Assembly (NCBI RefSeq): GCF_017744135.1
Contig: NZ_JAGHQU010000005.1
Coordinates: 1-64,000, forward strand
Direction of reading: 5' to 3'
Length of the DNA stretch: 64,000 nt
Origin: Endozoicomonas sp. G2_2
GTDB taxonomy: Bacteria > Pseudomonadota > Gammaproteobacteria > Nevskiales > Salinisphaeraceae
This document shows positions 47,626-52,469 of the stretch, piece after piece. Both the position numbers and the translations under genes were made by a program. How positions within the stretch are numbered: position 1 is the stretch's first letter; each line of letters opens with the position of its first letter. The notes beneath the pieces were generated by a model. It was not told where the DNA came from. It worked only from the letters and a program-made list of their open reading frames with translations, and did no database searches.

Positions 47626-47718
47626 CGGTCCACTGCCAACGCGCAGTGTGCGCGTTAAGCTGTGCTCAGCCATTTTTTCGTCGTCGGCATGGCCGGCGAC
47701 CGCCAGCGCGTTTTTGCC

Positions 47719-50430
47719 ATGTCGAAAGATTCCAACACGCCCCGCGGCCCGCTGATTCTCATCGACGGCTCGTCGTGGCTGTACCGCGCCTACCACGTGC
47801 TGCCGCCGCTCACGAACGCGGCCGGCGAGCCCACGGGCGCGATCTACGGCATGACCAATATGCTGCGCAAGTTCCTGCGCGAATACGAGGCCGACCGCAT
47901 CGTCGTGGTCTTCGACCCGAGAGGCGGCACCTTTCGCAACGAGCTGTTCGCCGACTACAAGGCCAACCGCCCGCCGGTGCCCGAGGAGCTGTCGGCCCAG
48001 TTCGAAGGCATTCGTGACGTGATTGTCGCGCTGGGCCTGCCGCTGCTGCAGGTGCCGGGTGTGGAGGCCGACGACGTGATCGGCACGCTCGCCGCCCGCG
48101 AGACCGGCGAGGTGCTGATCGTGACCGGCGACAAGGACATGGCGCAGCTGGTCAACGACCGTGTGCACCTGCTCGACACCATGCAGGACAAGCGCACCGA
48201 CGTCGCCCGTGTGCATGACAAGTTCGGCGTGGGTCCGGAATTGATCACCGACTACCTCGCGCTGGTGGGCGATACGTCGGACAACATTCCCGGGGTGTCG
48301 AAAGTCGGCCCCAAGACGGCCGCCAAATGGCTGGACCAGTACGGCTCGCTCGCGGGTGTGATCGAGCACGCCGACGAGATCGGCGGCAAGGTGGCCGACA
48401 ATCTGCGCGCGGCGCTCGAGGATCTGCCGCTGTACAAGGACCTGGCCACGATCCGCGTCGACCTGGACCTCGACGGCGCCGACGCCGAGCTCACGCGCCG
48501 CGACGCGGACGTCGAAACCCTGGCCGCGCTGTATCGCGCCTACGAGTTCCACAAGTTCCTCGAGGATCTGGACACCCCCGCGGCGCAGTCGTCGGCGCCG
48601 GCCGCGCCCACGGCACCGGCCGAAACGCATTACCAGTGCGTGCTCGATGCGGACGCGCTGGAAGCGATGATGGCGAAGCTCGAAGCCGCGGACCTGATCT
48701 GCGTGGATACCGAAACCGATGCGCTGTCGGCGATGCAGTCCAATCTCGTCGGCCTGTCGTTCGCGGTCGAGCCGGGCGAGGCCTGGTATGTGCCGGTGGC
48801 CCACGATTACATGGGCGCGCCCGAGCAGCTGCCGATGAAGACCGTCATCGAACGCGTGCGCGGCGTGCTCGAGAATCCCGATATCGCCAAGCTCGGTCAG
48901 CACATCAAATACGACATCAATGTACTGAAGCGCCACGGCATTAATATCGCCGGCGCCGATCACGACACGATGCTCGAATCCTACGTGCTCAACAGCACGG
49001 CCACCCGCCACGACATGGACTCGCTGGCGCAGAAGTATCTCGAACGCGGCACGACCAAGTTCGAGGAAGTCGCCGGCAAGGGCGCCAAGCAGATCACCTT
49101 CAATCAGGTGTCGCTGGAAGAAGCCACGCCCTATGCGGCGGAAGATGCCGATATCACCCTGCAGCTGCATCATCGCCTGTATGGCGAACTGGCCGACAGC
49201 CCGCGGTTGAAAGCACTCTACGAAGAGATCGAGATGCCGCTCATGCCGGTGCTGGCCCATGTCGAAGCCAACGGCGTGCTCGTCGATCGCGATCTGCTGG
49301 GCCGCGTCAGCCAGGAAATGGCCGAACGCATGGCCGAAATCCAGACCGCGGCGTTCGACGCGGCCGGCGGTGAGTTCAATCTCGGCTCGCCGGCACAGCT
49401 CAAGGAGATCCTGTTCGATCGGCTCGAACTGCCGGTGATCCGCAAGACGCCCAAGGGCGCGCCGTCCACCGCGGAGGATGTGCTGCGCGAGCTGGCCGAC
49501 AAGCACGAACTGCCGGCGATGATCGTGTCCTGGCGCGAGCTGTCGAAGCTGCGCTCGACCTATGCCGAGAAGCTGCCGACCCAGATCAATCCGCAGACCG
49601 GGCGTATTCACACCTCCTACCACCAGGCCGTGGCGGCCACCGGACGGCTGTCGTCGTCCGACCCCAACCTGCAGAACATTCCCATCCGTACCGAGTCTGG
49701 CCGGCGAATCCGCGAGGCGTTCATTGCGCCGGAAGGCCACCAGATTCTGGCGGTCGACTACTCGCAGATCGAACTGCGGATCATGGCGCATCTGTCCGGT
49801 GACCCCGGCCTCGTCAGCGCATTCAACGATGCGCGCGATATTCATGCGGCCACCGCGAGCGAGGTTTTCGACACACCGCTCGACGACGTCAACGCCGATC
49901 AGCGCCGGGCCGCCAAGGCGATCAACTTCGGCCTCATGTACGGCATGTCGGCGTTCGGGCTGGCCAAGCAGCTCGATATCTCACGTGAGGACGCCGGGCG
50001 TTATATCGACACCTTCTTCGAGCGCTTTGCCGGCGTGCGCCGCTATATGGACGAAACCCGCAAGCTCGCCAAGGCCGAAGGTTATGTGGAAACACTCTAC
50101 GGCCGGCGCCTGTACCTGCCCGAGATCAACGCGCGTAACGGTGCACGGCGCCAGGGCGCGGAGCGCGCGGCGATCAACGCGCCGCTGCAGGGCACTGCGG
50201 CGGATCTGATCAAGAAAGCGATGATCGACGTGCACGCCTGGCTGCAGGACACCGGCGAGCCGGCGCGCATGATCATGCAGGTGCACGACGAGCTGGTCTT
50301 CGAAGTACCCGAAGCCGAGGCCCAGCGGCTGGGCGACGCGATCAGCCAGCGCATGGGCGCGGTGGCGAAGCTCGATGTGCCGCTGCTCGCGGAAGCGGGT
50401 ATCGCCGAGAATTGGCAGCGGGCGCACTGA
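47719..50430 (+). CDS. polA: DNA polymerase I
   Basis: A 903-residue polymerase with all three domains. The 5'-nuclease occupies about 1-290 (LILIDGSSWLYRAYH, GVEADDVIGTLA, GDTSDNIPGVSKVGPKTA). The 3'-5' proofreading domain keeps its acids (CVDTETDALS, AEDADITL). The polymerase has VDYSQIELRI (motif A), RRAAKAINFGLMYGMSAFG (motif B) and QVHDELVFEVP (motif C). I start at ATG 47719; the frame opens 19 codons earlier. It is followed by three tandem sRNA-like genes and then engB, the gap that holds Spot 42 in E. coli and ErsA in Pseudomonas. Confidence 0.97.
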   Translation: MSKDSNTPRGPLILIDGSSWLYRAYHVLPPLTNAAGEPTGAIYGMTNMLRKFLREYEADRIVVVFDPRGGTFRNELFADYKANRPPVPEELSAQFEGIRDVIVALGLPLLQVPGVEADDVIGTLAARETGEVLIVTGDKDMAQLVNDRVHLLDTMQDKRTDVARVHDKFGVGPELITDYLALVGDTSDNIPGVSKVGPKTAAKWLDQYGSLAGVIEHADEIGGKVADNLRAALEDLPLYKDLATIRVDLDLDGADAELTRRDADVETLAALYRAYEFHKFLEDLDTPAAQSSAPAAPTAPAETHYQCVLDADALEAMMAKLEAADLICVDTETDALSAMQSNLVGLSFAVEPGEAWYVPVAHDYMGAPEQLPMKTVIERVRGVLENPDIAKLGQHIKYDINVLKRHGINIAGADHDTMLESYVLNSTATRHDMDSLAQKYLERGTTKFEEVAGKGAKQITFNQVSLEEATPYAAEDADITLQLHHRLYGELADSPRLKALYEEIEMPLMPVLAHVEANGVLVDRDLLGRVSQEMAERMAEIQTAAFDAAGGEFNLGSPAQLKEILFDRLELPVIRKTPKGAPSTAEDVLRELADKHELPAMIVSWRELSKLRSTYAEKLPTQINPQTGRIHTSYHQAVAATGRLSSSDPNLQNIPIRTESGRRIREAFIAPEGHQILAVDYSQIELRIMAHLSGDPGLVSAFNDARDIHAATASEVFDTPLDDVNADQRRAAKAINFGLMYGMSAFGLAKQLDISREDAGRYIDTFFERFAGVRRYMDETRKLAKAEGYVETLYGRRLYLPEINARNGARRQGAERAAINAPLQGTAADLIKKAMIDVHAWLQDTGEPARMIMQVHDELVFEVPEAEAQRLGDAISQRMGAVAKLDVPLLAEAGIAENWQRAH

Positions 50431-50621: not shown

Positions 50622-50636
50622 TCGAAAATTTTTCGA
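50622..50636. repeat. AT-rich palindrome upstream of sRNA A promoter
   Basis: TCGAAAATTTTTCGA sits 7 bp before the GGAAC element. A longer version lies in the same place before sRNA C. It could be an UP element or a regulator-binding site. Confidence 0.5.
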
Positions 50637-50643
50637 ACGGGTG

Positions 50644-50671
50644 GGAACTCGATCGTAGAGTGCCGGTCTCA
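50644..50671 (+). promoter_or_regulatory. Sigma-E/AlgU-type promoter of sRNA A
   Basis: GGAACTC (50644-50650) and TCTCA (50667-50671) with 16 bp between them. Copies B and C have the same arrangement with TCTGA. This matches the envelope-stress ECF sigma consensus GGAACTT/TCTGA. Confidence 0.7.
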
Positions 50672-50677
50672 TCCAGC

Positions 50678-50798
50678 ATGAGCGTCGTGCAACGCTCGAC
50701 CGCTTTTCTCCCTGAGCGGTAACCAGTATCCGGTTTCCCCCCAAGAACCGGACGACTTACCCCGACAGCGTTCCCCCGCGCTGTCGGGGTTTCTTTTT
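50678..50798 (+). ncRNA. Tandem envelope-stress-type sRNA, copy A (Spot 42/ErsA locus)
   Basis: A predicted transcript of about 121 nt from just after the promoter to the T-run. Hairpin 1 is GAGCGT/ACGCTC (50680-50697). Hairpin 2 is CCGCT/AGCGG with loop tttctccctg (50700-50719). Hairpin 3 is TCCGGTT/AACCGGA with a CCCCCC loop (50729-50752). The terminator has an 11-bp stem with loop ttcccccg followed by TTTCTTTTT (50760-50798). It is one of three copies. The position between polA and engB is that of Spot 42 and of Pseudomonas ErsA, and the promoter type matches ErsA. The C-rich loops could pair with Shine-Dalgarno regions. No coding potential is evident. Confidence 0.75.
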
Positions 50799-50899
50799 GT
50801 GGCGCGCCTGGCTTGGTCGCGCCTGGTTCGATACCGGGTGGTTTGCCCCGTGTGCGAGCGCTATTTCTCGGGACCCCGGGAAAAAACTTCGTAACCCGA

Positions 50900-50928
50900 G
50901 GAACTCCGCCGCGCGGCGCGCAGTCTGA
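50900..50928 (+). promoter_or_regulatory. Sigma-E/AlgU-type promoter of sRNA B
   Basis: GGAACTC (50900-50906) and TCTGA (50924-50928) with 17 bp between. The interval 50799-50899 before it shows no gene. Confidence 0.7.
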
Positions 50929-50933
50929 ACCTT

Positions 50934-51049
50934 GCAAGCAACAGGCTTGCCCGCTTTTCTCCCTGAGCGGTAACCCGAATCCGGTTCCCCCCAATAACCG
51001 GAATCTTGCCCCGACACGCATTTCCCCCGTGCTGTCGGGGCTTCTTTTT
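50934..51049 (+). ncRNA. Tandem envelope-stress-type sRNA, copy B
   Basis: A predicted transcript of about 116 nt. Hairpin 1 is GCAAGC/GCTTGC (50934-50950). Hairpin 2 is CCGCT/AGCGG with the same loop tttctccctg (50951-50970). Hairpin 3 is TCCGGTT/AACCGGA with a CCCCCC loop (50980-51002). The terminator is CCCCGACA/TGTCGGGG with an inner GCA/TGC and a tttccccc loop, followed by CTTCTTTTT (51009-51049). The first stem differs from copy A on both sides yet still pairs, which supports a structured RNA. Confidence 0.75.
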
Positions 51050-51138
51050 GCCCGGCGATCGCGAGAGCGGGGCAGTTGCGCCGTACAAGCCCCCTTGCAT
51101 GGCGCGCCGTTATGGTGGTTACGAGGGTCGTAACGGGC

Positions 51139-51157
51139 TTCGAAAAATTTTTTCGAA
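51139..51157. repeat. AT-rich palindrome upstream of sRNA C promoter
   Basis: TTCGAA and TTCGAA flank an A5T6-like centre, 6 bp before the GGAAC element. The same element precedes copy A but not copy B. The interval 51050-51138 shows no gene. Confidence 0.5.
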
Positions 51158-51163
51158 TTTTCT

Positions 51164-51191
51164 GGAACAAATTCTCGAAGGCCCGGTCTGA
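51164..51191 (+). promoter_or_regulatory. Sigma-E/AlgU-type promoter of sRNA C
   Basis: GGAACAA (51164-51170) and TCTGA (51187-51191) with 16 bp between, the same arrangement as copies A and B. Confidence 0.7.
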
Positions 51192-51196
51192 CCTTA

Positions 51197-51307
51197 TGCA
51201 AGCGCAATACTTGCCCGCTTTTCTCCCTGAGCGGTAACCCGATCCGGTTCCCCCCAAGGCCGGATCACCCGCCCCGACGGTATTCCCCCTGCCGTCGGGG
51301 TTTTTTT
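51197..51307 (+). ncRNA. Tandem envelope-stress-type sRNA, copy C
   Basis: A predicted transcript of about 111 nt. Hairpin 1 is GCAAG/CTTGC (51198-51214). Hairpin 2 is CCGCT/AGCGG with loop ttctccctg (51215-51234). Hairpin 3 is GATCCGG/CCGGATC with a CCCCCC loop (51241-51266). The terminator is CCCCGACGG/CCGTCGGGG with an attcccc-type loop and seven T (51272-51307). Hairpin 3 and the terminator stem differ from copies A and B by paired changes, while the C-rich loops are kept. Confidence 0.75.
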
Positions 51308-51352
51308 ATCCCTGAGCAATCAGACCTTTGTTGCGCATACTTTATGCCATAG

Positions 51353-51386
51353 AAAAACCGGCGCGTCGATTCGACACGCCGGTTTT
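51353..51386. terminator. Bidirectional terminator between sRNA C and the Fur-controlled gene
   Basis: AAAACCGGCG and CGCCGGTTTT form the outer stem of a 15-bp near-perfect hairpin with an inner GTCGA/TCGAC-type pairing. A/T runs on both sides serve both strands. Confidence 0.75.
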
Positions 51387-51420: not shown

Positions 51421-51624
51421 TCAGCGTCGCGCTGAGGCCGCCTGCATACGCGTCAGGTCGTCCCGGACACTGAGGAGCATGAGTTCGTGGAACAGATCCT
51501 TGATCGCCCGCGAACGATCCCCCCGGCAGTCCCAGGCAACGCGCACGCTGCCCGAGTCGATATCGATGATCTCGAGCTGCGGGGTGCCCTCGCGATCAAG
51601 CCATGCCCGAATGTCGTATCCCAT
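51421..51624 (-). CDS. Small protein of unknown function under a Fur-type promoter
   Basis: A 67-residue protein starting MGYDIRAWLDREGTPQLEIID. It is probably an antiparallel beta-sheet followed by a helix (RSRAIKDLFHELMLLS). I do not recognise the family. The frame has an earlier ATG at 51660, but that ATG overlaps the predicted -10 element, so ATG 51624 with its aagagg ribosome site is the likelier start. The Fur box in its promoter suggests expression under iron limitation. It lies between engB and the sRNA cluster on the engB strand, with its own terminator. Confidence 0.65.
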   Translation of the reverse strand: MGYDIRAWLDREGTPQLEIIDIDSGSVRVAWDCRGDRSRAIKDLFHELMLLSVRDDLTRMQAASARR

Positions 51625-51657
51625 GTCGTTGGCCCTCTTGAGACATCGCAGTTCGAG

Positions 51658-51685
51658 CATATATGAGAATGATTCTCATTTACAA
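51658..51685 (-). promoter_or_regulatory. Promoter with an embedded Fur box
   Basis: On the minus strand TTGTAA (51680-51685) and TATATG (51658-51663) are 16 bp apart. The spacer carries the 7-1-7 palindrome TGAGAAT-G-ATTCTCA (51664-51678), a strong Fur-box match. The -35 element overlaps the engB stop codon. Confidence 0.75.
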
Positions 51686-52294
51686 GCCAGGTTCGGCCGG
51701 CAATTCGTTGGCCAGCGTCGCGATGGCTTCACGCGCTTCGTCCACGCCCAGGCGCTTGAGTGCGGAAAACAGCTGTGCGGTCGCGTCGGGCATTTCGCGT
51801 TCCACGGCGCGCAGCGCCTTGATCTGCTGGTTGCGTGAAAGCTTGTCTGCCTTGGTCAGCACCAGATGAAAAGCCAGACCGACCTGTGTGCCCCAGTCGA
51901 TGAGCTGGCGATCGAACGCCATCAGCGGTCGGCGGGCGTCCATGATCAGCACCACGCCGGCAAGGGTTTCACGGTTGCTGAGATAGCCCTCGATCAGGGT
52001 TTGCCACTGAGCCTTTACGGCCGGCGGCACACGGGCGAAGCCGTAGCCGGGCAGATCCGCGAACTGCAGGCAATCGCTGGTGAAGAAATTGATGGCCTGG
52101 GTGCGGCCCGGCGTCTTGCTCGTGCGGGCCAGGCCGGTACGCGCACAGATGGCGTTCAAGGCGCTCGACTTGCCGGCGTTCGAGCGCCCGGCAAAGGCGA
52201 TCTCCGCGATATCGGGCGCCGGAAATGCACGCGCATTGGGTGCGGAGCAGACGAATCGCATCGCTTTGAAATCGGCTGGCGTAATGGCTGTCAT
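51680..52294 (-). CDS. engB: Ribosome biogenesis GTP-binding protein EngB (YihA/YsxC)
   Basis: A 204-residue essential-type GTPase acting in 50S subunit assembly. G1 is GRSNAGKSSALN, G2/G3 are SKTPGRTQ and DLPGYGFARV, and G4 is TKAD. The start ATG 52294 fits the family length; the frame runs 47 codons further upstream without similarity. The position between polA and cytochrome c4/dsbA mirrors Pseudomonas. Confidence 0.95.
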   Translation of the reverse strand: MTAITPADFKAMRFVCSAPNARAFPAPDIAEIAFAGRSNAGKSSALNAICARTGLARTSKTPGRTQAINFFTSDCLQFADLPGYGFARVPPAVKAQWQTLIEGYLSNRETLAGVVLIMDARRPLMAFDRQLIDWGTQVGLAFHLVLTKADKLSRNQQIKALRAVEREMPDATAQLFSALKRLGVDEAREAIATLANELPAEPGL

Positions 52295-52469
52295 GGGCAA
52301 CGACCGGAATTGGCGGGTCTGGCGGGCGTGATCGGCGCCGCCATGGCGGACTGTGGCCGGCGGACCGGGTGGTATACAATAAAGGCTATTTCCAGTGGGC
52401 AGCCAGAATCCGGTAAGGGCATCGGATAGCGCCATTGTGCTGCCGTTTTGCGTCGGAGACGACTACGAC

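Follow-up and report, generated by a model that had tools for sequence, protein, structure and literature searches.

A tandem array of predicted C-rich-loop sRNA genes with sigma-E-type promoters between polA and engB in Salinisphaera

In this study, we describe three complete predicted sRNA genes that lie in tandem on the plus strand (50644-51307) of the polA-engB spacer of a Salinisphaera genome, within a 64,000-nt stretch of DNA that was analysed as a whole (the window). They probably form a sigma-E-driven, multicopy array of the sX13/anti-hemB/ErsA kind, which would repress porins and lipoproteins. The array, its promoter motifs, RNA structure, conservation and the enrichment of complementary sites are all seen in the sequence. 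That C-rich-loop sRNAs occur beside polA was known already; what appears new is a tandem array in Salinisphaera with sigma-E-type promoters.

The polA-engB locus

The array is preceded by polA (47662-50430, plus strand) and followed by the convergent engB (yihA/ysxC; 51680-52435, minus strand), both open reading frames (ORFs) whose orthologues flank the arrays of relatives. Each unit follows one order: an A/T-rich stretch, GGAAC(T/A), 15-16 nt, (G/A)GTCT(G/C)A, a short 5' hairpin, the hairpin CCGCUUUUCUCCCUGAGCGG, a C6-loop hairpin, a terminator hairpin with a C5 loop, and U's. There are thus four predicted hairpins in each unit, the last three with C-rich loops.

For unit 1, an A/T-rich stretch (about 50622-50637) lies just 5' of the putative promoter (GGAACT ... 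GGTCTCA, 50644-50671), which has the same form as the rpoE promoter of the genus. The predicted sRNA spans 50677-50798, its 5' end being placed from the promoter, with the loop-1 hairpin at 50700-50719, hairpin 2 at 50730-50751 and the terminator hairpin at 50759-50790, followed by a T-run ending at 50798. The promoter of unit 2, assigned by motif pattern (GGAACT ... AGTCTGA, 50900-50928), precedes a predicted sRNA at 50933-51049 with its loop-1 hairpin at 50951-50970, hairpin 2 at about 50981-51001 and terminator at about 51009-51049, the T-run ending at 51049. Unit 3 has an A/T-rich stretch (51141-51158), a candidate promoter read from the sequence and conforming to the motif pattern (GGAACA ... 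GGTCTGA, 51164-51191) and a predicted sRNA at 51197-51307, in which the loop-1 hairpin occupies 51215-51234, hairpin 2 about 51241-51266 and the terminator hairpin 51271-51301, followed by a T-run ending at 51307. All of these elements are on the plus strand. The original prediction had placed three plus-strand units here, each with a promoter, four hairpins and its own terminator; its coordinates hold, and its unit lengths of 110-121 nt fit.

Over about 110 nt, unit 2 shares 85% and unit 3 shares 81% identity with unit 1, and the start-to-start distances are 251 and 264 nt. Terminator-like sites number 9 in the region against 1.6 in shuffles, and a sigma-70 promoter scan of the window region returned none. 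A DNA search of the window genome found the units at no other place. With R1, a covariance-type model built from units of the genus, whose scores inside the genus are high by construction, units 1-3 scored 107.3, 108.6 and 131.1 bits, and one extra weak match was found in the window genome (23.4 bits).

Three further elements lie between the last unit and engB. Directly after the last terminator (51309-51322) is the conserved TCCCTGAGCAATCA, found at the equivalent place in L093, L094, L095, L097, L100 and L101; it partly echoes the loop-1 core CTCCCTGAGC, and could be a relic of another unit or a piece of read-through RNA. An inverted repeat at 51354-51386, with 16-nt arms that are 94% complementary, is probably the engB-side (bidirectional) terminator. 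Just downstream of engB, a 79-aa ORF (51421-51660, minus strand) yielded no Pfam match and may be a real small gene.

Spread, structure and history of the array

The set had been predicted as a triplication; this is correct for the window, but the expansion is genus-wide rather than peculiar to one genome. Spacer arrays of 3-6 units are present between polA and engB in 13 of 14 Salinisphaera genomes, with 50 units in all (three units in six genomes, four in four, five in two and six in one). Used alone as a DNA query, unit 1 matched 3-6 times in each of 12 of the 13 remaining genus genomes. R1 counts agreed with the array in 13 of 14 genomes, R1 having been built from these same units; the Rfam model RF02837, which is independent of them, gave 3-6 matches below its cut-off in the same 13 genomes, some of them outside the array. 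The sole genus genome without a unit (G010, 81% complete) yielded none by DNA search, R1 or RF02837, through either a gap or a true loss. Relatives of EngB come from Salinisphaera, among them S. shabanensis and S. japonica. On their named loci, R1 identified 3 units each in S. shabanensis and UBA6602, 4 each in S. japonica, isolate NP40 and GH4, and 6 in strain Q1T1-3, six loci that belong to the genus set already counted and are not further cases. All three other genomes of the family, outside the genus, carry one spacer unit each, and these single-copy members together with the 50 genus units make up the 53-unit set used below. One of them (G016) has a second R1 match besides its spacer unit.

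Across the order, R1 matched at E 0.01 in 82 of 85 genomes, including 72/72 of good quality. In other genera of the order, units likewise occur in tandem, as pairs or in arrays of as many as four (four in L163 and L164; three in L165, L166 and L167). In the class sample, 134/369 genomes had R1 matches at E 1e-4, and no genome outside the genus had more than two, with at most nine candidates per genome scored and weak matches lost. Among the best-scoring class loci, 25 of 27 have polA and/or engB within 1.5 kb. A group of polA-engB C-rich-loop sRNAs can be described by a common structure detectable with R1 and by the polA/engB neighbourhood, and the window units have both. No match was found with Rfam at gathering level in nine EngB loci outside the genus, nor with R1 at E 0.01 in 21 non-Salinisphaera EngB loci; since some of these contigs may lack the polA side, the empty loci are weak evidence of absence.

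Four genomes of the order (G047, G051, G064 and G032) have more R1 matches, on other contigs or distant from the first, and some relatives in the order may carry copies at a second locus. At L103 (G014), a long minus-strand frame, dihydroxyacetone kinase-like by its translation, fills the gap between polA and the single unit.

A covariance search had been suggested as a check on the original prediction. Carried out with the unit-based model and Rfam, it gave the matches in relatives described above. In the 53-unit alignment, 98.2% of pair cells are paired, and double-sided changes occur in 18 of 27 pairs (99 cells against a shuffled mean of 23.0, with 0/500 shuffles as high), figures biased in the structure's favour by a consensus structure predicted on the same alignment. 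Sliding the pair partners abolishes the covariation signal. Together with the unit-1 matches in 12 of 13 genomes, this covariation argues that the array is more than chance and that its RNA is under selection. In the loop-1 hairpin, six pairs are invariant across the 53 units and the hairpin is exact in 50; since the other stems covary, the first hairpin seems to be kept as sequence and the others as structure. Constraint of this kind on the first hairpin is, as expected, what a pairing site would show. The C-rich loops reported at the outset are borne out, as CUCCC stands in a hairpin loop in 53/53 units, which all have at least two CCC loops, and 50 of which have three.

In a tree of the 53 units, in which 13 of 49 inner branches were starred and the bootstrap had not settled, position labels cluster across species (11 label changes, where shuffles give 24.9 and 0/200 are as low), with 4 label changes for first units, 6 for last and 9 for middle units. 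No position class is a single clade, and in G001, G008 and G013 the middle units cluster with others from the same genome. Because the labels cluster across species, the array is probably older than the species, and because of the within-genome grouping, its middle probably underwent later turnover. The array of G006 (L096) is split between units 2 and 3 by an insertion of about 1.2 kb, in which a minus-strand frame looks transposase-like from its translation; all five units retain their hairpins and terminators, with a strict promoter in four and GAAA in one.

Promoters and known relatives

The putative unit promoters appear to be of sigma-E type, with the same form and spacing as the rpoE promoter of the genus. 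GAAC(T/C/A)-N15-17-GTC(T/A/C) is found 5' of 51 of 53 units, against 0.24 in shuffles, and a looser pattern before all 53, against 1.14 expected, the remaining two units carrying GAAA. The spacing from GAACx to GTC is 16 in 45 units and 17 in 6. In E. coli, sigma-E autoregulates, which makes the rpoE promoter of the genus a natural yardstick. We found rpoE in 14/14 genus genomes and, at all ten loci examined (of 14), GAACT-N15-GGTC(T/C) lies 117-123 nt before its start codon; the loose rpoE pattern has additional matches in six of these ten upstream regions, and the match at 117-123 nt is the only one common to all ten. This rpoE motif is preceded by C or A, and a pattern demanding G/T before GAAC matched at 0/14 loci.

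Among homologues from outside the family, 74 of 90 have a somewhat looser pattern in front of them (21/27 in the class, 53/63 in the order), against 2.1 expected, the 27 class loci being the best-scoring ones and the 63 order units coming from 40 chosen stretches, the first 20 of which were picked favouring genomes with several matches. The 90 exclude the 5'-truncated L175 and include one homologue in masked sequence. Among the 16 homologues without the pattern, roughly half nevertheless have, by eye, GAAC or GAAA and a TCTA/TCCA-like -10, and one is masked. Genome-wide, a strict promoter pattern gave 3 matches versus 6 for a backwards control, and so revealed no regulon past units 1 and 2.

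With respect to known RNA families, all three window units score under every Rfam cut-off, and on sequence grounds they are therefore best called homologues of the sX13/anti-hemB/ErsA group rather than members of a named family. For units 1-3, anti-hemB (RF02837; cut-off 49.5) scored 36.9, 31.3 and 32.7 bits, with the lowest E-value for all three; sX13 (RF02232; cut-off 50) scored 30.5, 31.5 and 38.1, the top bit score for units 2 and 3; and ErsA (RF01719; cut-off 50) scored 22.3, 21.4 and 13.8. By sequence, the units are tied more closely to anti-hemB than to sX13 and ErsA. RybB gave a weak partial line (E 5.7). The anti-hemB cut-off is passed in 16 of 85 order genomes and in 0/14 control genomes, three of which match below it, and anti-hemB positions coincide with R1 matches in the four genomes compared (G033, G038, G039, G050). 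Among the matches listed, no Salinisphaera unit reaches that cut-off, the best scoring 42.1. A scan of 40 loci at gathering level found anti-hemB in four (L138, L139, L167, L183), and sX13 and ErsA in none.

In the parts of its report drawn on here, sX13 of Xanthomonas lies beside polA, has three C-rich-loop hairpins, acts on 4G motifs independently of Hfq and represses mRNAs with G-rich motifs; its authors had already remarked on sRNAs at the polA locus of several bacteria and raised the question of whether more species have them (PMC3771888). The window units likewise adjoin polA and have three C-rich-loop hairpins. Those same parts of the report treat sX13 as one gene and leave sigma-E unmentioned, whereas the window has tandem copies, sigma-E-type promoters and the loop 1 UUCUCCCU. 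With anti-hemB and Burkholderia RNA 7, the units share a first hairpin of the same kind (CUCCCUGAGCGG); anti-hemB itself appears in the literature drawn on here as table entries that give no function. The closest physiological parallel, by analogy, is ErsA of Pseudomonas, described in the available portions of two papers as an envelope-stress sRNA that depends on sigma-22 (a sigma-E homologue) and represses the porin OprD (PMC7565897, PMC8395346). Here too the promoter motif resembles the sigma-22/sigma-E type. Repression of a porin is a prediction for the window units, drawn from complementarity of 11-14 nt at the ribosome binding site (RBS) of DcaP in 7 genomes. As described there, however, ErsA is one gene, in contrast to the tandem array of the window.

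From a different phylum, LhrC1-5 of Listeria are, according to the portion of the report used here, multicopy and envelope-stress induced, with copies judged additive and CUCCC motifs predicted to cover the Shine-Dalgarno sequence (PMC4132741). The likeness is one of working only: their regulator is LisRK, and we claim no homology. In E. coli, porins or the Lpp lipoprotein are repressed by the sigma-E sRNAs MicA, RybB and MicL, whose loci and sequences differ from those of the window units. Among the titles and abstract openings listed, drawn largely from outside subscription journals, there was no report of the Salinisphaera array and no sigma-E link for the polA/engB sRNA group besides ErsA.

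Predicted targets and proposed function

Loop 1 is 8 nt long and has AGGGAGAA as its exact complement; it is unpaired with a predicted probability of 1.0 in all three window units. AGGGAGAA stands 1-9 nt before an ATG 135 times in 14 genomes, versus 14 for the backwards pattern. A Shine-Dalgarno-like control octamer, AAGGAGAA, behaves in the same way (156 versus 21 backwards), so that the count alone says nothing and the encoded products have to speak. A hydrophobic N-terminus is encoded by 41 of 63 ORFs with a AGGGAGAA RBS against 8/23 for AAGGAGAA (p 0.012), and a lipobox by 14/63 against 0/23 (p 0.008), with significance against the control octamer arising after the addition of 20 control loci and a Rossmann-fold filter. 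This filter was adopted after the first comparison; unfiltered, the counts are 42/63 versus 59/195. The first matched sample was not significant on its own, with 15/20 versus 6/13 (p 0.095), and all 63 against those 13 gave p 0.14. In background genes, which a simple ORF caller delimited in a single genome (G000, 541 kb), the corresponding numbers are 77/320 for hydrophobic N-termini (p 7e-10 against the AGGGAGAA set) and 11/320 for lipoboxes (p 3e-6). No dose-response was found between envelope enrichment and match length.

As to sampling, the 63 ORFs exclude those under 120 aa, with masked residues or with near-identical N-termini, and the set leaves out one site of G007, which nearly duplicates that of G003, and nine of the eleven in G011, which nearly duplicate those of G012. 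For the control octamer, 50 of the 156 sites were used, giving the 23 non-redundant ORFs; 20 of these 50 loci were hand-picked from four genomes, passing over a repeated element and a few others.

Seven of the eleven AGGGAGAA sites in the window genome precede credible genes, the other four preceding short or doubtful frames. The seven encode a DcaP porin, a TonB receptor, a putative lipoprotein, a ZapG-like protein, a TRAP transporter DctM subunit, a MAPEG protein and, contrary to the envelope trend, the cytosolic Ndk. DcaP is the strongest predicted target case. Contiguous complementarity at its RBS extends to 12 nt in G000, G003, G004 and G007, 14 in G005 and 11 in G011 and G012, seven genomes that are not independent, as the sites of G003/G007 and G011/G012 are the same or nearly so. 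By comparison, the longest match at 322 background starts is 7 nt, bar one lipoprotein with 10, itself a AGGGAGAA site. The DcaP-like genes of G010 and G013 have 10 nt of complementarity upstream, DcaP of G002 has only 6, and further DcaP-like paralogues in G004, G010, G011, G012 and G013, as well as that of G009, are without a site; in three genomes the DcaP orthologue search gave no match at cut-off. By duplex energy, DcaP ranks 35, 11 and 42 of 323 for the whole units and 4 of 323 for the loop-1 hairpin, so whole-length duplex energies do not single it out.

We propose that the three genes encode trans-acting sRNAs and are homologous copies of the C-rich-loop sRNA that many genomes of the class carry next to polA/engB. 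Each would be its own transcription unit, with a sigma-E (RpoE) promoter, an RNA of about 110-120 nt and an intrinsic terminator. Under envelope stress, sigma-E would turn on all copies at once, and the exposed loop 1 would pair with AGGGAGAA at the RBS of porin (notably DcaP), TonB receptor and lipoprotein mRNAs, thereby blocking translation. Loops 2 and 3 could add contacts to G-runs through their C-runs, and 3-6 copies would give a higher output under a single signal. In this scheme, that the units are expressed, depend on sigma-E, pair with and repress their targets, and that dosage matters, is what we infer. That these might be envelope-stress sRNAs had been anticipated in the original prediction, and the sigma-E-type promoters and envelope-enriched RBS complementarity lend this idea backing.

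Other readings of the array deserve consideration. If all the C-rich loops acted broadly on G-rich (GGGG) translation enhancers, and neither envelope genes nor sigma-E had a particular part in it, the units would be regulators of the sX13 type, a view we hold to be unlikely. It draws on the bit scores of units 2 and 3, on the action of sX13 on 4G motifs through its C-rich loops (PMC3771888, in part) and on a mild enrichment of GGGG upstream of AGGGAGAA (13/63 versus 30/322 in background, p 0.012), which would also fit extra contacts by loops 2 and 3; against it stand the sigma-E-like promoters of 51 of 53 units, the envelope enrichment of AGGGAGAA genes and the fact that the invariant part is loop 1, not the C-runs. 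To a similar degree, we doubt that first, middle and last units are specialised to different targets. Their clustering by position across species makes first and last units look like old paralogues, but no position class forms a single clade, and the re-duplication of middle units within lineages fits dosage better. Overlapping or divided targets had both been envisaged; as almost every copy has an identical loop 1, overlapping targets and a greater output are favoured, and division is unsupported.

Two more readings strike us as very improbable. A Spot 42-type carbon-catabolite sRNA in orthologous position would account for the polA/engB neighbourhood, and a shared polA locus is noted in the part of the sX13 paper considered here (PMC3771888). 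The label of Spot 42/ErsA locus given in the original prediction is right as to place; the Spot 42 model, however, does not match the units even at E 10 and their promoters are sigma-E-like, so that the Spot 42 reading is disfavoured; ErsA matches them less well than sX13 and anti-hemB. Multicopy stem-loop RNAs often titrate CsrA, and the units might be such protein-binding decoys (CsrA/RsmA sponges) or mere terminator repeats. CsrA titration is raised also in the LhrC paper, in the portion used here (PMC4132741). Against this reading speak the C-rich hairpin loops of all 53 units and the promoter motif before every unit, strict or loose.

Returning to the sigma-E-driven array that we prefer, we would venture a wider proposal, tentatively and with slightly less than even confidence. 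The C-rich-loop sRNA by polA/engB may be an ancient member of the sigma-E regulon of Gammaproteobacteria in the broad sense, with sX13, anti-hemB and ErsA as separately named branches; in Salinisphaera, and less so in other genera of the order, it would have become an array of tandem copies, their number setting how strongly outer-membrane proteins are shut off. If true, separately described sRNAs would be brought together by a shared promoter logic and a shared predicted pairing loop, and the relatives would provide a natural copy-number series, from one to six, for gauging sRNA gene dosage in the envelope-stress response. The little-studied Salinisphaera would, in turn, gain a concrete circuit for shutting off porins and lipoproteins.
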